A stretch of 64,000 nt of DNA, taken from assembly GCF_015169395.1 (NCBI RefSeq), contig NZ_CP063458.1:5518001-5582000 (forward strand), given 5' to 3'. This DNA is from Humisphaera borealis. Its GTDB lineage: Bacteria; Planctomycetota; Phycisphaerae; Tepidisphaerales; Tepidisphaeraceae. The number at the start of each line of letters is the position of its first letter. The first letter of the stretch is position 1. The notes beneath the pieces were generated by a model that ran no database searches, was not told the origin of the DNA, and was given only the letters and a program-made list of their open reading frames with translations. This document shows, one piece after another, positions 977 to 11,364 of this stretch. A program made the position numbers and the translations under genes.

Positions 977-1984
977 ATGACCAGCGCCTTGGCGTCTCTA
1001 ACCGAACTCATCCGCCCACAACTCGCGGCTGTGGAAGATCTCTTCCACAGCGAGCTGTCGTCGGACCTTAAGTGCGTCAACACGCTGGTGAAGCACGTCA
1101 GCCGATTCCGCGGCAAGATGCTCCGCCCGTGCCTGGTGCTGCTGACGGCCAAGGCGGTCAACCCGACCGGGCAGCTGACGGCCGACCACGTGAAGCTCGC
1201 CACCGTCGTCGAGATGGTTCACATGGCCACGCTCGTTCACGACGACGTCCTGGATGAAGCAGAGCTTCGCCGCAAGGGCGCGACGATCAACCACCTCCGC
1301 GGGAACGAGGCGGCGGTCATCCTCGGCGACTACCTCATCAGCCACAGCTACCACCTCTGCTCCGACGTCGACAACGCCAGCCGCGGCCTGCCGTCGCAGT
1401 ACGCCAGCCGACTGATCGCCAAGACCACCAACGATGTCTGCTCCGGCGAGCTGCTGCAGCTCGACAACCGAAACAACCTCGACCTCGACGAGCAGACCTA
1501 CCTGGAAATCATCAAGCGCAAGACTGCCGTCCTGACGGCGGTCTGCTGCCGCCTGGGCGCCGCGTTCGCCGGCGGCAGCGAAGCGGTTACCGAGGCGATG
1601 GAGCTGTACGGCCTGTCGCTCGGCGTCGCGTTCCAGATCCAGGATGACATCCTCGACCTCGTCGGCGACGCCGGCAGCGTGGGCAAGACCCTCGGCATCG
1701 ATATCGAGAAGGGGAAAATGACGCTGCCGCTGATTCACTTCATGCGCACCGCGCCCGCCGAGCATCAGGCGCTGCTGCGTTCACTTTTGAGTGAAGGCGG
1801 GGCGGCCGACCGGGCGGAAAAGATCCGCAATCTGGTCATCCCCAGTGGAAGCCTGCAATACGCCCGCGACCGGGCCAGAGCCCTCGTCGATCGCGCCCGC
1901 GGATGCCTGAGCGGCTTGCCCGACAGCGAGGCGAAGCGTGTGATGGACACGATGGCGGAGTTCGTCGTGACGCGGCCAATGTGA
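977..1984 (+). CDS. Long-chain polyprenyl diphosphate synthase (IspB/HepT-type)
   Basis: 335 aa. Chain-elongating trans-prenyltransferase that condenses isopentenyl diphosphate onto allylic diphosphates, probably making the side chain of a quinone. The first aspartate-rich motif is HDDVLDEAE (about residue 88) and the second is QDDILDLVGD (about residue 223). FRGKMLRPCLVLL is the usual substrate-binding segment, and KGKMTLPLIH follows the second motif as in octa/heptaprenyl synthases. Length is normal for the family. The ATG at 977 is preceded by GGAG at 967-970. The gene stands alone and converges on the small minus-strand genes downstream, with a palindromic repeat between them. Product chain length cannot be read from sequence alone. 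Confidence 0.93.
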   Translation: MTSALASLTELIRPQLAAVEDLFHSELSSDLKCVNTLVKHVSRFRGKMLRPCLVLLTAKAVNPTGQLTADHVKLATVVEMVHMATLVHDDVLDEAELRRKGATINHLRGNEAAVILGDYLISHSYHLCSDVDNASRGLPSQYASRLIAKTTNDVCSGELLQLDNRNNLDLDEQTYLEIIKRKTAVLTAVCCRLGAAFAGGSEAVTEAMELYGLSLGVAFQIQDDILDLVGDAGSVGKTLGIDIEKGKMTLPLIHFMRTAPAEHQALLRSLLSEGGAADRAEKIRNLVIPSGSLQYARDRARALVDRARGCLSGLPDSEAKRVMDTMAEFVVTRPM

Positions 1985-2991: not shown

Positions 2992-4746
2992 TCAGCCGAC
3001 GGCCACTGGCTCGGCTGCTGTCGCCCTAGCCAAGTTCTTTTTCTCAAACTCCTTGCACCACCCCTTCACCTGTAGGTCGTTGAAGATCTTCGACATCACC
3101 CGGCGCAGCAGGCCCTTCAGGCTGGCGTTCTCGAGGTAAGTCAGCGTCTTGATCGCCTCTTCCTTGTACCCTTCGTACAGGTTCTGGCACCGCTCGTCCG
3201 ATCGGCTGTCGGTGATGATCTTGCGGATGCGGTCGCTGATTTCGATCGGCGTTCCCTCATCGGCGAGTTGCCGCCGCCAGACGCGGTCCATGAACGGCTT
3301 CTGGTCCTTCGCCCGCTCATGGGCGACGGCCAATAGCAACGACGGCCGCAGCGCGGCGATGTCGTCCGGGGCGTGGCCTTCGGTGCTCAAATCCTCCAGG
3401 TCGTCGTGGATCTGGTACGCGATGCCGAGCTTCTCGGAATAGTTGGCGATCACATCGTGGACTTCTTCGTCCGCGCCAGCGTAAAGGGCGCCCAGGCGAA
3501 GGGCGACCTCGAATGCCGGGGCCGTCTTCTGGCGGAAGATGTCCAGCACCTCGACCGGCGACAGCGGCTTGGGGTTGCGAGCCCAGCACAGCTCCGCGCC
3601 CTGCCCGAGCGACAGCGTGCGATGGCCGATCGCCGCCACGCGGAGCATTTCGACCTTGTTCATCGGATCGGCGGCGCACTCGGCGAGCAGCCGGTAGCCT
3701 TCGCCGAGCAGGTAGTCGCCGACGTTCAGCGCCACGCCGACACCGTGGGTTTCGTGCAATGTCGCGTCGCCGTAGCGCAGGGCGTCGTTGTCTTCGATGT
3801 CGTCGTGGATCAGCGACGCCTTGTGGAAGCACTCGACCGCGGCGGCGACCTTCCGCAGGTCGCTGGGGATCGGGGCGTCGGCGTCTTCTTTACGCAGCGC
3901 CTTGTACGCGCAGACCGTCAGGAACGGCCGCCAGCGCTTGCCACCCTTGTTGAGCCACTGGCGAGCGATGTCGTCGGTTTCGCCCCCCATCCCCGGATGC
4001 CTCTTGCCCATGATGTCGGCGAGGTTTTCCGGCGTGAACCAGCCGTCGACTTCGTCGCGGATGGCGTCGAGGTTCAGCCGGTGGGTCTTGTCGTCGCTGG
4101 TCAGGTGGATGACTTCCCACACCCAGTCCATGTCCACGTTGGTATCGACGCAGTCGTCCTGCAGCAGCGGGATGGCGATGCCGGGGATGGCCGCCGCTTC
4201 CATGAACGGGAACGACTTTTCCAGCACCGACAGGCAGGAAACGCCGACGATCGCTTCGATCTTGCCGGTCTGGATGATCGACATGACCAGCTGCGAACCC
4301 TCGGCGACCAGGACCGCGTAGCCGAGTTTTTCGGCTTCGCCTTGCAGGTCCTGGATGCTGCACAAGCCGCAGTTTTTGCAGAGCAGGCCGAACTCATCGA
4401 ACGGGGCGGGGCATTTCTCTTCGATCCGCATACACTTGGGCATGAGGAGCAGCCGCCGCTCGAACGGCACGGTCGCCAGGTGCTCGCGCCAGGCCTGGTT
4501 GTTGATGAGGATGGCGGTGTAGTCGCGGAAGATCGGGTCGAGCCCGGCCATCTCGATGCACTTGTCGGCGTGGACCTTGAGCTCTTCCAGCGGCATCGGC
4601 GGGACGGGGTTGTACGTGGCGACGTACTCGCGAACGATGCGCGCAAGCTGGTCGCGTTCCTGCCGCGTCTGCGGAACGTTGTCCTGCGGCTTGCGCATCT
4701 TCTGCATCGGCACAGCCTGCGGAAGCGTGATCAGGGGCATACCCAT
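2992..4746 (-). CDS. DUF116-polyprenyl synthetase fusion protein
   Basis: 584 aa. The ATG at 4746 is preceded by AAGGAG seven nt upstream; a longer frame that begins inside the repeat at 4780 is rejected. Residues ~55-250 form a DUF116 domain with Cys residues at CMRIEEKC and CKNCGLC, a likely Fe-S site, followed by EAIVGVSCLSVLEKSFPFME. Residues ~265-560 form an isoprenoid synthase domain with GGKRWRPFL, first aspartate motif HDDIEDND (~313) and second motif IHDDLEDLS (~446). Both DDxxD motifs are intact, so prenyl transfer is likely. The fusion of a redox-type domain to a prenyltransferase suggests a modified isoprenoid product. It is the last gene of the radical SAM cluster that begins near 10476. 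Confidence 0.85.
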   Translation of the reverse strand: MGMPLITLPQAVPMQKMRKPQDNVPQTRQERDQLARIVREYVATYNPVPPMPLEELKVHADKCIEMAGLDPIFRDYTAILINNQAWREHLATVPFERRLLLMPKCMRIEEKCPAPFDEFGLLCKNCGLCSIQDLQGEAEKLGYAVLVAEGSQLVMSIIQTGKIEAIVGVSCLSVLEKSFPFMEAAAIPGIAIPLLQDDCVDTNVDMDWVWEVIHLTSDDKTHRLNLDAIRDEVDGWFTPENLADIMGKRHPGMGGETDDIARQWLNKGGKRWRPFLTVCAYKALRKEDADAPIPSDLRKVAAAVECFHKASLIHDDIEDNDALRYGDATLHETHGVGVALNVGDYLLGEGYRLLAECAADPMNKVEMLRVAAIGHRTLSLGQGAELCWARNPKPLSPVEVLDIFRQKTAPAFEVALRLGALYAGADEEVHDVIANYSEKLGIAYQIHDDLEDLSTEGHAPDDIAALRPSLLLAVAHERAKDQKPFMDRVWRRQLADEGTPIEISDRIRKIITDSRSDERCQNLYEGYKEEAIKTLTYLENASLKGLLRRVMSKIFNDLQVKGWCKEFEKKNLARATAAEPVAVG

Positions 4747-4779
4747 TCGTTTAACTCCTTCGAACCGATGCAACTCATT

Positions 4780-5365
4780 CACCACGGAGGCACGGAGACA
4801 CGGAGGGCAATCCGTACTACCGCGCATCTTGCGAAACGTCAGTCTTTCCGTCCCAAACCAAGCAAGTCAGCAAACTCGTCGAAACTCTTGGCACACACAA
4901 CCCACTCGTTCTTATCGCCGCGCTCGGACCACTTGAGCCGTCGTACTTTAGGGCTGCCTAACGCGTCGCGATAATCAAGAATGATAGGTGAATCGGTCCC
5001 CGGGCCGAAGTCACCGATCACTGTTGCCTGCTCAGCCACGAGTTGATCAACTGCGCCCTGCTCTTTCCAGAAGTTGTAACCTTCTGCCAAACCGTCGCGC
5101 CGCAATCCGTGCTCCACCTCGTACTGTGCTACTGTTTTGAATGGCGGCGAACAGAAGTAGATTTCCGATTCGTCACTTGCGATCTGTCGCACTCGGTCGG
5201 CGGAAACCGCTATCCGCAGTCCCCAGCCACATTGTTCACCTTCAACTGCCCAGGTACCGCCTTGCAGCAGTTCTTGCAGGCGGATCGGGATTGGAAGGTG
5301 CTTCGACGCCAATTCTCGCCCTCCGATTTCCGAACGACCCTCCGTGTCTCCGTGCCTCCGTGGTG
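4780..5365. repeat. 28-nt perfect inverted repeats flanking a cargo gene
   Basis: The word CACCACGGAGGCACGGAGAC and eight more bases (4780-4807) is repeated exactly as its reverse complement at 5338-5365. The two copies enclose the gene at 4839-5312 and little else. The unit sits between the radical SAM gene and the DUF116 fusion gene, so it appears inserted into the cluster. No transposase gene is present, so it would have to be moved in trans. Confidence 0.8.
4839..5312 (-). CDS. SMI1/KNR4 (SUKH)-like protein
   Basis: 157 aa from a TTG start, so the start is uncertain. The C-terminal half reads GDFGPGTDSPIILDYR, then SPKVRRLKW and SFDEFADLLGL. This pattern (G-x-D-S-P-I-x-L-D-Y-R, P-x-V-x-x-L-x-W, S-F-x-E-F) is typical of SMI1/KNR4-superfamily proteins, many of which are immunity proteins or stand-alone proteins of unknown role. 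Recognition is from pattern only. It is flanked by 28-nt inverted repeats and separates two genes of a metabolic cluster, so it looks like cargo rather than part of the pathway. Confidence 0.6.
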   Translation of the reverse strand: MASKHLPIPIRLQELLQGGTWAVEGEQCGWGLRIAVSADRVRQIASDESEIYFCSPPFKTVAQYEVEHGLRRDGLAEGYNFWKEQGAVDQLVAEQATVIGDFGPGTDSPIILDYRDALGSPKVRRLKWSERGDKNEWVVCAKSFDEFADLLGLGRKD

Positions 5366-5381
5366 ATCTCTTCTTTGCCGG

Positions 5382-6581
5382 TCACCCGTAAGCCCCGAAC
5401 CCGAAGAAGTAATGCTTCTTCGCGAACCGGTAAATGAAATTCTCCTCCGGCACTTCGTTGCCTGGGTTGTGCTGGCTGTTTCGCGGCGTCATCGCTTCGA
5501 TCTCGGCCATGCCTGCACCGGGTTCGCGGTGCGTGGTGTCTTTTGCACCGTGCTTCAGCACCAGCGCCTTCACGATGTCCGGGCGTTCCAGCACGATGCA
5601 GCCTTGCGTCGACTGGGCGGCGGCCTTGCGGAAGTCGGCGAGGTACTCGCTGTCTTTGAACACGTGCAGCAGGTTGCGCTCGTCGTGGACGGTTTCCTTG
5701 GCGAACTGGATGATCGGGCAGGGCTCGATCTCGCCCCACGGGTTGATGTGATGGCTGATGCCGGTCGCCATCGGGCAGAGCGCGCCGCCTTTGTCGTCCC
5801 AGTAGGCATCGATCACGCCGATCGGCTTGGTGTTTCGCAGGTGGACGATGAACTTGCGAATCCGCAGCACCTGGTCCGGCGAGAGTGCCAGTTCAGGGTG
5901 CGGATCGGCTCCCACCGGGCGGTAGGTGTGATACCAGACGTAATGCGCGCCCATCTCGATCAGCCGATCAACCCACGACTCCTGCACGAGGTCGTCGATG
6001 TTCGTCTGGCAGACGCTGGTCGCGACGCCGGTGATGAGCCGATTGCGGATGCACGCTTCGAGGCCGCTCAGCGTGCGATTGAGCACGTTCAGCCGGCCGC
6101 GGCGTTCGTTGGAGATGATCTCGGTGCCTTCGATGCTCACCAGCGGCGTGATGTTGCCGAGCTTGCGCATCTCGGCGGCGATCTTGTCGGTGATCAACTG
6201 CCCGTTGGTGAAGATCTGGAAGTAGCAGTCGGGGTGGCGGCGGACGATCTCCAGCAGTTCCGGGTGCATGAACGGCTCGCCGCCGAGCAGGCCGAAGAAC
6301 GCGTTCCCCTGCTTCTTGGCGTCGCCGATGATGCGGTCCATCTTCCCGGCGTCGAGGTAATGCCGCGGGCCGTCGACCTTCACCCAGCACCCCTGGCAGC
6401 GCAGGTTGCAGGAGTTGATCACCGAGATGTAAAGGAACGGCGGGAAGTAGTCGCCCTTCTTGATCCGTTTCTTGAACTTCTGGACCGAGCGCATGCCCTT
6501 GTAGCCGAAGTTGTAGGCGAACTTCCACATGACCTTGGGGTCGGTGGTGGTGAGCATTCGCTTGGAGAGGGTGAACAGCAT
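5382..6581 (-). CDS. Radical SAM protein with SPASM-like C-terminus
   Basis: About 399 aa. The ATG at 6581 is chosen over a GTG nine nt upstream. The radical SAM cluster motif is CNLRCQGCWVK (CxxxCxxC) after PPFLYISVINS, followed by GLLGGEPFMHPELLEI as the SAM-binding GGE motif and VSIEGTEIISNERRG. The C-terminal region has CPMATGISHHINPWGEIEPC and a later GCIVLE, resembling a SPASM/Twitch auxiliary Fe-S site. It cleaves S-adenosylmethionine to start radical chemistry; the substrate is unknown. Upstream in the cluster lie the ferredoxin (possible electron donor) and GTPase, and downstream the DUF116-prenyltransferase, which points to an isoprenoid or lipid substrate (inference). Confidence 0.88.
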   Translation of the reverse strand: MLFTLSKRMLTTTDPKVMWKFAYNFGYKGMRSVQKFKKRIKKGDYFPPFLYISVINSCNLRCQGCWVKVDGPRHYLDAGKMDRIIGDAKKQGNAFFGLLGGEPFMHPELLEIVRRHPDCYFQIFTNGQLITDKIAAEMRKLGNITPLVSIEGTEIISNERRGRLNVLNRTLSGLEACIRNRLITGVATSVCQTNIDDLVQESWVDRLIEMGAHYVWYHTYRPVGADPHPELALSPDQVLRIRKFIVHLRNTKPIGVIDAYWDDKGGALCPMATGISHHINPWGEIEPCPIIQFAKETVHDERNLLHVFKDSEYLADFRKAAAQSTQGCIVLERPDIVKALVLKHGAKDTTHREPGAGMAEIEAMTPRNSQHNPGNEVPEENFIYRFAKKHYFFGFGAYG

Positions 6582-6611
6582 AACGACCACTCGGGTGACG
6601 ATGACGGGACA

Positions 6612-7127
6612 GAGAACACGAAGGCGCGAAGGATCACGAAGAAATCAGGGACTGTGGATCACTCGCTTGATCCCATCGGCTAATCGTTCGACGTTAAAGT
6701 TGATGACCAATCCAAGTTGGAGCTTCAGAAGTCGGAGGTACTTCAGGCATTGAGCCTTATGGACCGGAGAGATCGCATCGACTGCCTTGAGTTCCAGAAC
6801 AAGCATATCTGCGACCAGGATGTCGATACGCGCCTCCCCGACTTCCTTCCCTTTGTAACTGATTACAACGGGAACCTCGCATCTAAACGGAATCCGTCGC
6901 AGCTCAAGCTCGTAGCAAAGTGCCAGAAGATACGATCGCTCAGGCATACCGGGTCCAAGCTCTTTGTGAACTTCGATCGCCGCCCCGATCACCTCAGAAG
7001 CAAGTCGCTCGACCGCCGGATCAACCGACGATTCAGACCGCATTCGTGTTCGGGAATCGAACGGACCCATCTCCAACTCCTTGTCTTCACTTCGCGATCC
7101 TTCGTACCTTCGCGCCTTCGTGTTCTC
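6612..7127. repeat. Near-perfect inverted repeats flanking a GxxExxY gene
   Basis: The left arm 6612-6641 (starts GAGAACACGAAGGCGCGAAG) is matched in reverse complement at 7099-7127, differing only by a small mismatch and indel in about 30 nt. The arms enclose the GxxExxY gene at 6645-7076 with only a few spare bases. The unit lies between the ferredoxin and radical SAM genes of the cluster. The architecture matches the neighbouring unit at 4780-5365, but the arm sequence differs. Confidence 0.8.
6645..7076 (-). CDS. GxxExxY protein (PD-(D/E)XK-like fold)
   Basis: 143 aa. The signature G-M-P-E-R-S-Y appears in HKELGPGMPERSYLLALCYE. It is followed by the core EARIDILVADMLVLELKAVD, with D and E-x-K placed as in a PD-(D/E)XK nuclease fold. 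PVHKAQCLKYLRLLKLQLGL and a short VINFNVERL end are also typical of the family. The biochemical role of GxxExxY proteins is not established. Near-perfect inverted repeats abut both ends, so the gene is probably carried as a mobile unit inserted between two genes of the cluster. The start may lie a few codons downstream. Confidence 0.85.
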   Translation of the reverse strand: MEMGPFDSRTRMRSESSVDPAVERLASEVIGAAIEVHKELGPGMPERSYLLALCYELELRRIPFRCEVPVVISYKGKEVGEARIDILVADMLVLELKAVDAISPVHKAQCLKYLRLLKLQLGLVINFNVERLADGIKRVIHSP

Positions 7128-7143
7128 TTCGCCGGCGAGGGGG

Positions 7144-7977
7144 TTAAGAGTTCGCGGTCGCCGCCGCGGCCGCTTTCGCCTTGATCATGTCCATGCTCGG
7201 CAGCGCGTTCATCACCTCCGCCGGAATATCGAGCGCCTCCTGCAACGTCTGCTGAAGTTTCGTCAGGCACGCTTTCCGCTCGGCGATGGCGCGCTTCTCA
7301 TCGCGTTCCTTGCTGAAGCGGGCCTTGGCGTCGGTGCTCCGCTGCCGCAGGGCGGCGTAGATGTCGCCGCCCAGCAACGCGCTGATGTCGATCTTCATCT
7401 TCTCACGGCTGATATCCGCCTCGCGGACTTCGTCGCCGTTGATCGGGCCGGCTTTGTACTTGGGGAAGAGAATCGCGACTTCCGGGCAGACGCGGCTGCA
7501 CGCCGGGCAGTCGGTCTTGCAGTTGGCGGGGTTCTCGACGCCGATCTTTCCGCCAGGCGCGCCGTAGACATCGAACAGGCAGAACGACAGGCACTGCATG
7601 CAGTTGGTGCAGCGCTGATAGTCGATGACGGGGAACCAGGGCTTCCAGGGCTTGGCGGGGGTACCGCCGCGCACTTCGTCGACGATCTTGCCGACCTGGT
7701 CGACGCTCAAGCCGGCGATATCGCGGAAGCGGACGGTGACGCCGTTCTCCCCTTCGGCTTCGTTGGGCTTGGCTTCGTTGAACCGGCCGAGGACCAGCAA
7801 CTGTCCGCCGGGCGGAGGCGTGACCGATCGGCCCGGCCGAATGCACGAGATGGCGACGCCTTTTTCGAGCAGCGACTTGAGAATCGCGCCGCGATCGACG
7901 GCGGACAGCTCTTCGCTGCCGGCGCCTTCGTACAGCGCGACCTTCATCATCGGGGTTTTGGTGGTCGGTGCGGCCAT
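7144..7977 (-). CDS. 4Fe-4S ferredoxin-domain protein
   Basis: About 277 aa using the ATG at 7977; an upstream in-frame start reads lysine-rich sequence unlike a protein N-terminus. The Fe-S part is PVIDYQRCTNCMQCLSFC, then NCKTDCPACSRVCPEVAI, which gives two cysteine sets (CxxCxxCxxxC and CxxxCxxCxxxC) for two [4Fe-4S] clusters. The first ~130 residues form a separate domain of unknown fold, and the C-terminal ~70 residues look helical and charged. It probably passes electrons within the cluster, for example to the radical SAM protein (inference). Its neighbours are the HdrA-like gene upstream and the GxxExxY cargo downstream. Confidence 0.8.
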   Translation of the reverse strand: MAAPTTKTPMMKVALYEGAGSEELSAVDRGAILKSLLEKGVAISCIRPGRSVTPPPGGQLLVLGRFNEAKPNEAEGENGVTVRFRDIAGLSVDQVGKIVDEVRGGTPAKPWKPWFPVIDYQRCTNCMQCLSFCLFDVYGAPGGKIGVENPANCKTDCPACSRVCPEVAILFPKYKAGPINGDEVREADISREKMKIDISALLGGDIYAALRQRSTDAKARFSKERDEKRAIAERKACLTKLQQTLQEALDIPAEVMNALPSMDMIKAKAAAAATANS

Positions 7978-8116
7978 GCGGTTGAATTTCTTATAACTTT
8001 CGAGCTTCTGAACCTTTGATCTGTGCTCGTTCGTCAGTACATCATCGGCGAGGCGGTTTTTCGCCACCTCTTGGTTGCGCCTCACACATCAAAGCCTTCC
8101 AAGGCACGTCTGATCT

Positions 8117-8198
8117 GGGTGGCATGGGCAAGTACTCTTGCCCGTGGCGAACACCAATCGACGTCCCGCACGGGCAAGAGTACTTGCCCATGCCACCC
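8117..8198. repeat. Palindromic intergenic repeat, family B copy 1
   Basis: The arm GGGTGGCATGGGCAAGTACT and following bases from 8117 is answered by its reverse complement ending at 8198, around a ~25 nt centre. Related copies occur at 61100-61189 and, more decayed, at 40322-40410. It lies in the 242 nt gap between the HdrA-like gene and the ferredoxin gene. Confidence 0.85.
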
Positions 8199-8219
8199 AA
8201 GGCGATGCCATATCGTTCA

Positions 8220-8606
8220 TCACACCGCCGCCGGTTCTTCTTCCGGCGGGGCGGGCTGGTCCGTCGGGCGGCCGTTGAGCAGGATCTGCACGATCGGTTC
8301 GGCCTGCTCCACCCGCATGTTGACGACTTCCAGGCCTTCCGGCCAGGGCACCTTCGCCGCGTTAAACAGCCATTTCACCGCCCGCGGGTAACACGCGGCG
8401 ATGCGGAGTTCATTACCCGGGCCGACGCCTTCGACGAGCTGGTTCAACGCCGGGTCGCGCTTGGCCGACAGTTCGCACAGGTCGGCGACCGCGTCGAAGG
8501 CGACGCCGCTCTCGGCAAGACGGCGCAACACGTCGTTCTTCACCTCGTCCGGTACGACCTTGGCGTACGCACAGTGACAGTAGAGGATGCGAGCGTTGTC
8601 GGGCAT
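8220..8606 (-). CDS. Small HdrA-like cysteine protein
   Basis: 128 aa from the ATG at 8606. The order ARILYCHCAYAKVVP, then FDAVADLCELSAKRDPAL, then LRIAACYPRAVKWLF resembles the short segment of HdrA/QmoA-like proteins in which 'C.C' opens the domain and 'aaCsPR' closes it. Four cysteines (C-H-C, D-L-C and A-C-Y) could bind a metal cluster. The rest of HdrA (FAD domain, ferredoxin domains) is absent. It lies between the G3E GTPase and the ferredoxin on the same strand, so a redox role in the cluster is likely. The family link is by motif only. Confidence 0.55.
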   Translation of the reverse strand: MPDNARILYCHCAYAKVVPDEVKNDVLRRLAESGVAFDAVADLCELSAKRDPALNQLVEGVGPGNELRIAACYPRAVKWLFNAAKVPWPEGLEVVNMRVEQAEPIVQILLNGRPTDQPAPPEEEPAAV

Positions 8607-8648
8607 TCGGTATTCAAGTGGCACGGGACAGGCGTACGTGCGGCGATG

Positions 8649-9758
8649 TTACGCCTCGGCCAGACGGTGCGTCGGTTCCGGCTTGCCAGGGCGGAAGTGC
8701 TCCAGGTGCTGAACGCTCAGCTTCAGGCCTTCCGTTTCGATCATCAGTTCCTCGATCGCTTCGACTGTAGCATCCTTCAGGGCTTCGGGGTCGGCCTCGG
8801 CGCGAAGATTTACGATCAATTCCCCGGCGTCGATCTCCGCCGCCAGCTCGTGTGACAGCTCGGCCGAGCCGTCGGTGCGAACCAGGTTCAGCACTGCGAT
8901 ATCACTGCCGGCGTCGGGGGTGAGCGTCATCTTCAGATGCGCCACCTCGGCGCTCTGCCCGGCCAGCCGGGCGTGGATCCTGGCCGCCAGGTCGCGAAGC
9001 AGCCTGTTGCCATCGGTCGGCGATTGAGCGGCAACCGACACCGTGCAATTCATCCAACCCAGCAGAGCCTCGCCCTCGGCGTAAATCTCGTAATCGACCT
9101 CCATCGACGGCTCAAATCCCAGATCGCTGCCGGCGATCAGGTCGAACCAGGTCTGCATGCCTTCGCCATGCCGGGCGGACATCAGCACGACCCTGGCCTT
9201 GGGGAACCGCGACGTCAGCGCGCCGACCAGCCGGGCCTGGCGATCGGGCGGCAGCAGGTCCATCTTGTTAACGGCGATGACCTCCGCCTCTTCCAACTGC
9301 TTCTCGTAAACGTAGACGACCTTTTTCGTAAACGCCTTGCCGACTTCCAGACCCAGGATGCGTTCGGCCCGGATCGGATCGACCAGCACCGACAGCGGGG
9401 CGACGGAATAGGCATCACCATACATCCGCCGAAGCGGGTAACTCACGGACGCCTTCAGGTCGGTGCAGCTGCCGACGGGCTCGGCGATGAATACTTCCGG
9501 CCGTGACGCTTCGGTCAGCCGGTCGGCGGCGTCGGTCAGGCTGTTAAACCGGCAGCAGAAGCACCCGCCGGTGATTTCTTCGGTGGCAAAACCGTGGGAA
9601 GACAGCATCGCCGTATCCACCAGGCCCACGGACTGATCATTGGTGATCAGCCCGACGCGCTTCCCCTGCGACCGAAGGTGCTCGGCCAGCTTAAGGATGG
9701 CGGTCGTCTTCCCGGCGCCCAGGAAACCGCCGATCATGATGTAACGGGAGGGGGTCAT
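8649..9758 (-). CDS. G3E family GTPase (CobW/HypB-like)
   Basis: 369 aa. The Walker A motif is GGFLGAGKTTAI at residues 9-20. The metal-binding signature of COG0523/CobW proteins is present as GGCFCCRFNSL (CxCC), and EVFIAEPVGSCTDL fits the Walker B/switch region. AVNKMDLL is the N-K-x-D guanine motif. Such proteins load a metal or cofactor onto a client enzyme using GTP. The client may be another member of this cluster (inference). The C-terminal half lacks an obvious CobW C-terminal domain and instead reads as an alpha/beta extension. The gene is followed 40 nt later by the HdrA-like gene. Confidence 0.88.
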   Translation of the reverse strand: MTPSRYIMIGGFLGAGKTTAILKLAEHLRSQGKRVGLITNDQSVGLVDTAMLSSHGFATEEITGGCFCCRFNSLTDAADRLTEASRPEVFIAEPVGSCTDLKASVSYPLRRMYGDAYSVAPLSVLVDPIRAERILGLEVGKAFTKKVVYVYEKQLEEAEVIAVNKMDLLPPDRQARLVGALTSRFPKARVVLMSARHGEGMQTWFDLIAGSDLGFEPSMEVDYEIYAEGEALLGWMNCTVSVAAQSPTDGNRLLRDLAARIHARLAGQSAEVAHLKMTLTPDAGSDIAVLNLVRTDGSAELSHELAAEIDAGELIVNLRAEADPEALKDATVEAIEELMIETEGLKLSVQHLEHFRPGKPEPTHRLAEA

Positions 9759-9767
9759 GGTTGTTTG

Positions 9768-9895
9768 TCACTGGTCACTGGTCACTGGTCACTGGTCACT
9801 TGTCACTTGTCGCCCGTTAGGAATTGCTCGGTCGTACCTGTCCTGCCGGTGCCGTCCAATTGGTTACCAGTGACAAATGACCAGTGACCAGTGAC
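9768..9895. repeat. Tandem TCACTGG heptamers with an inverted partner array
   Basis: Four copies of TCACTGG followed by two of TCACTTG run from 9768 to 9809. The opposite orientation (CCAGTGAC, GACAAATGACCAGTGACC) returns at 9866-9895. The two arms could form a long stem around a 56 nt centre. The element fills the 145 nt gap between the GcvH-like gene and the GTPase gene. It is too short and too regular for a CRISPR. Confidence 0.85.
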
Positions 9896-9903
9896 GAATT
9901 CCT

Positions 9904-10476
9904 TCATCCGAGCATCTTGTCAATCGTCGCGTCCAACACCTGCATATACCCGTCGACGGCGGTGCTGTTGGGGTCGGGCGTTCCTCGCGCAAGATAAAGC
10001 CAGCCAGCGTAATACGGATCTTTGTCGATGCGCGACGGGTCGTCGTTCAGTGTGGTGTTGGCTCCCTCGAACGTGCCGTCGATCACGCCATAAACATCCG
10101 ACAGTGCCTTAAACCCTTCGACCCAGCCGAGGGTTTGCCCGACGGTGATCGCACTGCCGGGCTTGGCTTCGAATCCCTGTTCGACGATCTCACCGAGCAT
10201 GCGGGTGGCGAAGCGGGTGAAGCCGACCTTGTAGAGGGGGGCTTTGCCGTCCGACGCCGGTTCCAGCTCTTCGAGCCAGAAGTGGGAACGGGTGTAGAGG
10301 AACTTCCGTGGCAGGCGGCTCTGAAAACGGTTCCGCTTGTACAAAATGACGGTGGCGGGGTCGAAGGGGGTCTTCGACACAGGTGCCGGGGTGGCCGACA
10401 GTGGGTTGGGGTCGCATTCCATGCCGCGCTCAAGCGTAGTCGGCCCGCGGCCGGTTGTCATATTGTCGAACGTCAT
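9904..10476 (-). CDS. GcvH-like lipoyl carrier protein
   Basis: 190 aa using the ATG at 10476; another ATG at 10422 and a TTG at 10485 are possible. Residues ~85-175 form a glycine cleavage H-protein-like domain: VGFTRFATRMLGEIVEQGF, then GQTLGWVEGFKALSDVYG, then DPYYAGWLYLARG. The Lys in E-G-F-K-A-L-S-D (about K123) aligns with the lipoylated lysine of GcvH. It is longer than classical GcvH (~130 aa) because of an N-terminal extension. No gcvT or gcvP gene is nearby; instead it leads the GTPase/ferredoxin/radical SAM cluster. It may be a dedicated lipoate carrier as in the sHdr system (LbpA), which is an analogy only. Confidence 0.82.
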   Translation of the reverse strand: MTFDNMTTGRGPTTLERGMECDPNPLSATPAPVSKTPFDPATVILYKRNRFQSRLPRKFLYTRSHFWLEELEPASDGKAPLYKVGFTRFATRMLGEIVEQGFEAKPGSAITVGQTLGWVEGFKALSDVYGVIDGTFEGANTTLNDDPSRIDKDPYYAGWLYLARGTPDPNSTAVDGYMQVLDATIDKMLG

Positions 10477-10590
10477 TGCCGGCAAATGACAAGCGGTTGA
10501 AGACTTATCACGTTTGCATTGGACAAACGACCCGGCTTGGGTTCTAATCCTCGTACCACCACCGCGCTCCCCACGATCGGGGAGAGCTTC

Positions 10591-11364
10591 ATGACGCGCC
10601 TGTCCGAGCCGGTACGGCCATCTTTAGTTCCGATGCATGCAGTCGCATCGGTCGATTCCATCCGGGGAGAATCCCCCAAGCTTTCTGTATCAACTTCAGG
10701 CAGCAACCACGGTTCGTCCGAAAGAACCGGCCAGGCTTTCTCGCCGATGGGTCAATCGTTGCCGGCCACGCCGCCGGTGCCTAGTTCCGTTGTCGCTGCC
10801 CGTCTGCGCTGGTTCCGCACCGAGCGGGGTTTACGCCTCGAAGACGTCGCCAAACGGGCCGGATACACCAAGGGATTTCTGAGCAAGATCGAGCACGGCA
10901 AGGCGTCGCCGCCGATGACGACGCTGCTTCGCGTTGCCGCCGCGTTGGGTGTGGAGGCTGACGTTCTGTTCGCCCCGGACGCGGGCGTCGCACCCGACGC
11001 GACGGTGCACACCAGTTCCGGCGCGGGCGTTCACGTGCGTGACGACACCGCCGGCCCCGGCCGCACCTTGCTCGCTGTCGCCGCCAACCGGCATCACAAG
11101 TTGATGGAGCCGTTCGTTGTAACCCTCGAACCGGGACAGACTTCGACCGAGCGCCGGCTGACCTACCCGGGCGAAGAGTTCGTCTACGTACTGGAAGGCG
11201 AGATCGATTACACGGTGGGAGAAGAAACCTTCACCATGAAGCCGGGCGACGGGCTTTACTTCAACTCGACCCGCCCGCACGCCGCGATCAGCAGAGGCGG
11301 CAGGGCACGCATGGTGCGGGTCTTCTGCGCGTCGCCGGCCCGGCGGAACCGGGGAGAAGAGTAG
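10591..11364 (+). CDS. XRE-family transcriptional regulator with cupin domain
   Basis: 257 aa. The ATG at 10591 is preceded by GGGGAG eight nt upstream. An N-terminal ~70 residue Ser/Pro-rich region precedes a helix-turn-helix domain (RLRWFRTERGLRLEDVAKRA, GYTKGFLSKIEHGKASPP) at about 75-130. Residues ~160-250 form a cupin_2 domain: LTYPGEEFVYVLEGEIDYTV, then MKPGDGLYFNSTRPHA. The layout matches the small-molecule-sensing XRE-cupin regulators (PuuR/SutR-type). It is divergent from the GcvH-like gene across a ~115 nt gap, so it could regulate that cluster. This is inference; no operator was identified. Confidence 0.9.
   Translation: MTRLSEPVRPSLVPMHAVASVDSIRGESPKLSVSTSGSNHGSSERTGQAFSPMGQSLPATPPVPSSVVAARLRWFRTERGLRLEDVAKRAGYTKGFLSKIEHGKASPPMTTLLRVAAALGVEADVLFAPDAGVAPDATVHTSSGAGVHVRDDTAGPGRTLLAVAANRHHKLMEPFVVTLEPGQTSTERRLTYPGEEFVYVLEGEIDYTVGEETFTMKPGDGLYFNSTRPHAAISRGGRARMVRVFCASPARRNRGEE

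Follow-up and report, generated by a model that had tools for sequence, protein, structure and literature searches.

What might six genes do together that encode a lipoyl carrier, a CobW-type GTPase, an HdrA-like protein, a ferredoxin, a radical SAM protein and a prenyl synthetase? The question is raised by a stretch of 64,000 nucleotides from the planctomycete Humisphaera borealis (contig NZ_CP063458.1, positions 5,518,001 to 5,582,000; hereafter the window), in which these genes lie on the minus strand between positions 2992 and 10485. Our analysis points to a dispersed, squalene-independent pathway of at least eight proteins, supplemented in many relatives by a cysteine desulfurase, that probably makes a cyclic terpenoid. 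This answer builds on the gene content, the gene order, the conserved catalytic residues, the co-occurrence of the families and their separation from the hopanoid locus, all of which were observed directly. The gene set is widely conserved in bacteria, and neither the combination nor a function for one of its domains, DUF116, was found described in the open literature searched, which did not cover subscription papers and most preprints.

A gene set conserved across several phyla

The original prediction, made from the sequence of the window without database searches, had placed the six genes on the minus strand in the order given here, and sequence and family searches bear this out. In the order of transcription they are:

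9904..10476, minus strand: GcvH-like lipoyl carrier protein (PF01597, 4.3e-16), with the lipoyl Lys126 in EGFKA, codon at about 10108-10110
8649..9758, minus strand: CobW/COG0523 G3E-type GTPase (PF02492, 6e-24), with GGxxGxGKT and GGCxCC
8220..8624 (start possibly 8606), minus strand: HdrA-N-terminal-like iron-sulfur (Fe-S) protein of 134 residues, with a CxC...C...C motif
7144..7977, minus strand: 2x[4Fe-4S] ferredoxin-like protein (Fer4 matches), with an extra N-terminal domain and a conserved C-terminal tail
5382..6590, minus strand: radical SAM protein (PF04055, 9e-15), with CxxxCxxC and SPASM/twitch-like auxiliary cysteines C272, C291 and C331
2992..4746, minus strand: fusion of DUF116 (cysteine-rich, probably Fe-S; PF01976, 3.9e-36) with a trans-prenyl diphosphate synthase (DDIED and DDLED; PF00348, 1.6e-44)

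The view of this run as a six-gene cluster holds for the genes and their order, but two unrelated open reading frames (ORFs) interrupt it and the set is larger than six. From the comparison with orthologs, the true starts are probably at 4746 or 4740 for the fusion of DUF116 with the prenyl synthetase (DUF116-PPS) and at 7977 for the ferredoxin.

Presence and absence were examined in 199 Planctomycetota genomes, 28 of which carry the HdrA-like gene (HdrAn), and around it the order GcvH-CobW-HdrAn-Fdx-rSAM-DUF116PPS (Fdx, ferredoxin; rSAM, radical SAM protein) recurs in numerous planctomycete families. When GTDB genome contigs were scanned as well, 311 relatives came to light; judged by their record titles, the best 80 of these 311 comprise about 36 Verrucomicrobiota, about 23 Planctomycetota, about 14 Acidobacteriota, one KSB1 and a few with vague or odd labels. 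Four records of metagenome-assembled genomes that are titled Klebsiella pneumoniae or Akkermansia muciniphila (L073, L067, L075 and L090) carry the HdrA-like gene in a Verrucomicrobia-like context, and their labels look wrong. The commonest order, GcvH-CobW-HdrAn-Fdx-rSAM-DUF116PPS-toroid-SHC, was found in 28 of 99 non-redundant loci, nearly always on one strand, and shorter versions of it occur in many further loci, many of them cut by contig ends. Gene order is thus conserved, in Planctomycetota, Verrucomicrobiota, Acidobacteriota and KSB1, far more than expected by chance. The original prediction had proposed searching other planctomycetes for the same order, and these 28 whole loci, spread over several phyla, show that it is not unique to this genome.

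The two additional genes of the longer operon encode a 294-residue alpha-alpha toroid protein of the prenyltransferase family and a class II terpene cyclase of about 620 residues that belongs to the squalene-hopene cyclase (SHC) superfamily, here called SHC-like. A cysteine desulfurase is added in about one third of the loci, and clustering of all neighbouring ORFs revealed no additional family that is similarly well supported; the next is present in 16 loci. H. borealis has copies of the toroid (C1:3144505, 52% identity) and of the SHC-like gene (C1:5328595, 52% identity) that lie 2.4 Mb and 0.19 Mb, respectively, away from the six genes, and so the cluster is split in this genome.

Do these families also belong together where they are not neighbours? 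To count them, DUF116-PPS was called fused when an open frame of at least 480 residues surrounded the DUF116 match, and radical SAM orthologs were scored above 400 bits. Fused DUF116-PPS is present in 47 of the 199 genomes, the SHC-like cyclase in 46, the toroid in 43 and the radical SAM protein in 41. All four occur together in 37 genomes, one to three of them in 12, and none in 150. Every pairwise Fisher test among these four core families gave p ~1e-31 or lower, in a test that ignores shared ancestry. The co-occurrence, which had been put forward as a check of the cluster, is therefore almost perfect for these families. Moreover, because the set is retained with its genes far apart in H. 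borealis and three other genomes (G024, G048 and G152), the association cannot be due to linkage alone.

A candidate route to a cyclic terpenoid

Strong support for the claim that the cluster uses radical chemistry to make or modify an isoprenoid comes from the class II cyclase and the toroid in the operon of the relatives. Both also occur in the same genomes as DUF116-PPS and the radical SAM protein, even where the genes are not linked. The cofactor motifs first read from the H. borealis proteins are each 93-100% conserved in orthologs. From these elements we infer the substrate and its chain length, the direction of electron flow, the roles of the lipoyl arm and of the GTPase, and the product, as follows.

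The prenyl synthetase half of DUF116-PPS would synthesize a prenyl diphosphate whose chain probably exceeds C15. The Asp residues of both DDxxD motifs are invariant in 31 sequences, and in the AlphaFold model of the fusion (pLDDT 84.7), the synthetase half, which filled the results of the fold search, matches the GGPP synthase 6kd7 with Z 34.3 and a root mean square deviation of 2.4 over 318 residues. Ala and Ser occupy positions -5 and -4 before the first Asp motif, which suggests a product longer than C15, as small residues at these positions are presumably a sign of such products. The fusion itself suggests that Fe-S chemistry takes place on the prenyl product. Stand-alone DUF116 genes were considered as a functional guide and set aside: in other planctomycetes they lie mostly beside def/fmt-type and rsmB-type genes, which does not explain the fusion. 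These neighbours, identified by eye (L174-L183 and L185), form an unexplained link to translation start.

The SHC-like class II cyclase would then protonate and cyclize this prenyl diphosphate, or a product of it, by means of its DxDD acid. This motif (D358-x-D360-D361) is invariant in 24-44 orthologs, as is the equivalent of His451, while the family has Trp in place of F365, Phe in place of Y420 and no 434-437 loop; the roles that we attach to these SHC positions are assumed. The toroid, whose very confident model (pLDDT 96) resembles RabGGTase beta, may bind or process the prenyl chain. At what we take to be the zinc-ligand positions of protein prenyltransferase beta subunits (Asp, Cys and His), an alignment of 30 orthologs by eye shows that the toroid has kept the Asp, with Leu in place of Cys and Tyr in place of His.

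The remaining proteins could tailor the product. DUF116, the pair of HdrA-N-like protein and ferredoxin, the radical SAM/SPASM protein and the lipoyl protein may constitute a reducing module with Fe-S, radical and dithiol chemistry, able, for example, to remove the diphosphate reductively or to form a C-C or C-S bond, with the GTPase probably serving one of them as a chaperone for a metal or cofactor. The more specific conjectures of the original prediction, that the lipoyl arm carries the intermediate, that the GTPase loads a metal and that the ferredoxin supplies electrons, here to the radical SAM protein, may also hold. In the GcvH-like protein, E123, F125, K126 and A127 are invariant in orthologs, and among solved structures it is closest to glycine cleavage H proteins. 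In 68 sequences of the GTPase, Walker A and CxCC reach a conservation of at least 93%, all eight cluster cysteines of the ferredoxin are invariant, and so are CxxxCxxC and the three auxiliary cysteines of the radical SAM protein, which reached no equivalog cut-off. The 134-residue protein is called HdrA-like because of its motifs. It carries the CHC...C...AAC.P...N.R pattern of true HdrA N-termini, with C16, C18, C50 and C78 invariant over 22-99 sequences, but alignment of its family with HdrA N-termini by hhalign was not significant (P 0.055 and 0.07), a profile search of the PDB returned nothing significant, and there was no meaningful Pfam or NCBIfam match.

Hopanoids, protein prenylation and sulfur

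Could the set simply tailor hopanoids or cyclize squalene, with a diverged squalene-hopene cyclase as its SHC-like protein and an HpnH-like enzyme as its radical SAM protein? Both pathways combine a class II DxDD cyclase with a radical SAM enzyme in isoprenoid metabolism, the SHC-like protein is a member of the SHC superfamily (TIGR01787, 113 bits), and H. borealis itself and 17 further genomes among the 28 that carry the HdrA-like gene have squalene/phytoene synthase (SQS_PSY) proteins. However, the SHC-like proteins score 82-88 bits (88 for the H. borealis copy) against the 431-bit equivalog cut-off for SHC (TIGR01507), and the radical SAM protein 39 bits against the 225-bit cut-off for HpnH (TIGR03470). 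A canonical SHC-HpnC-HpnD-HpnH locus lies elsewhere in the H. borealis genome: its SHC scores 657 bits, HpnC and HpnH exceed their cut-offs (549 bits for this true HpnH), and an HpnD-like protein falls just short. Unlike that locus, the present cluster has no squalene synthase, and the lipoyl and Fe-S proteins have no counterpart in the hopanoid pathway. The substitutions and the missing loop of the SHC-like family also speak against a squalene-hopene cyclase. Finally, 10 of the 28 genomes lack an SQS_PSY match, 7 of these 10 have the SHC-like gene, and one of them, G057, is 99% complete and holds the full set, which argues against an SHC-like enzyme that converts squalene to hopene. We therefore consider a hopanoid role unlikely. 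Bacterial class II cyclases that act on prenyl diphosphates, such as drimenyl diphosphate synthase (8zg1), belong to the same superfamily and would offer a precedent for taking a prenyl diphosphate directly, yet the SHC-like profile is nearer to SHC (110 bits) than to these enzymes (about 62 bits), and we know of no lipoyl, Fe-S or radical SAM partners in such systems. In subdivision-6 Acidobacteria, a published survey could annotate no shc gene, and it listed the two cultured members of this group without hopanoids (PMC5462960); the present set is carried by Vicinamibacteria-labelled genomes, which need not be the same strains.

A protein-bound end product, in which a prenyl or terpenoid group is placed on the GcvH-like or another protein with the toroid as a prenyltransferase-like subunit, would fit the dedicated carrier with its invariant Lys and the RabGGTase-beta fold of the toroid model. 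We find it quite improbable, with two of the three presumed zinc-ligand positions changed and a DxDD cyclase that would be unusual for protein prenylation. The carrier has the fold family and the lipoyl-lysine motif of the glycine cleavage H protein, but it scores 61 bits against the 115.85-bit cut-off for gcvH (TIGR00527), and canonical gcvH and lipA genes are present elsewhere in the genome. The prediction had also linked the lipoyl and HdrA-like proteins to sHdr sulfur oxidation, and sHdr systems do use lipoate-binding proteins (PMC6067878), such as LbpA. A GcvH-related lipoyl protein adjoins an HdrA-like Fe-S protein in the present set as well, and cysteine desulfurases lie nearby in about a third of loci, so that one could imagine an sHdr-like system of sulfur oxidation or sulfur transfer with the isoprenoid genes as a membrane or quinone side branch. 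In contrast to sHdr, the H. borealis genome has no match at 1e-10 to a full HdrA with FAD domain (NF041778 search), neither HdrB/C nor lipoate ligase is among the conserved neighbours of the clusters (the whole genome was not searched for lipoate ligase), and isoprenoid enzymes are found instead, conserved as tightly as the rest of the set. The sHdr link is thus unsupported, and we regard this reading as highly improbable. A role in defence was discarded, as PADLOC gave just generic radical SAM (viperin) and Cas4-like matches.

It is tempting to speculate that sulfur ends up in the terpenoid. Position and lineage divide the cysteine desulfurases near the cluster into three groups, with 57-62% identity within and 31-42% between groups, and would supply sulfur that either is needed by the several Fe-S proteins or enters the product. 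Three separate lineages of desulfurase are represented at the operon, depending on the relative. The lipoyl arm could carry sulfur and the radical SAM/SPASM protein form a C-S bond on a squalene-independent scaffold, giving a sulfur-containing cyclic terpenoid. Such a product, which we hold to be possible although rather unlikely, would be a bacterial lipid or cofactor of a new class.

The squalene-independent pathway to a cyclic terpenoid thus remains the reading that we favour, and the following points weigh against it. The argument from missing squalene synthase rests mainly on G057, since the other six SHC-like genomes without an SQS_PSY match are 69-90% complete. No usual radical SAM protein was detected in the genome G107, which has in its place an unrelated 511-residue B12-type radical SAM ORF (L041:11048-12583). 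In a second planctomycete group (L149, L156, L158, L160, L161 and others), in which the cyclase precedes DUF116-PPS, the HdrA-like domain forms the N-terminal part of the ferredoxin and, as judged by eye, has lost all its cysteines; the domain's own cluster is dispensable there, and because of this loss the domain appears able to work without it.

If the favoured pathway is correct, a terpenoid route shared by several abundant phyla of soil and water operates alongside hopanoid synthesis in the same cell, and an isoprenoid that is widespread among bacteria would so far have escaped identification. Such a route would also provide the first pathway context for DUF116 and, to our knowledge, the first link of isoprenoid chemistry with lipoyl carriers and with Fe-S domains of the HdrA type. 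In addition, matches to the SHC superfamily alone do not predict hopanoids, which matters for biomarker surveys.

Intervening and flanking genes

Two ORFs stand between genes of the set in H. borealis:

6645..7076, minus strand: GxxExxY PD-(D/E)XK protein (TIGR04256, 130 bits), between the ferredoxin and radical SAM genes
4839..5312, minus strand: ORF of 157 residues with a weak SUKH-like signal (SMI1_KNR4, 14.5 bits, under the cut-off)

The GxxExxY protein is outside the group of families that relatives conserve near the cluster, and no counterpart of the 157-residue ORF was found in the other loci examined. Upstream of the GcvH-like gene, a divergent gene for a helix-turn-helix-cupin regulator (10519-11364, plus strand) is not conserved at other loci. 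At the opposite end, a second polyprenyl synthetase gene (977-1984, plus strand, 335 residues) lies tail-to-tail with DUF116-PPS, and its product has 29% identity to the fused synthetase.

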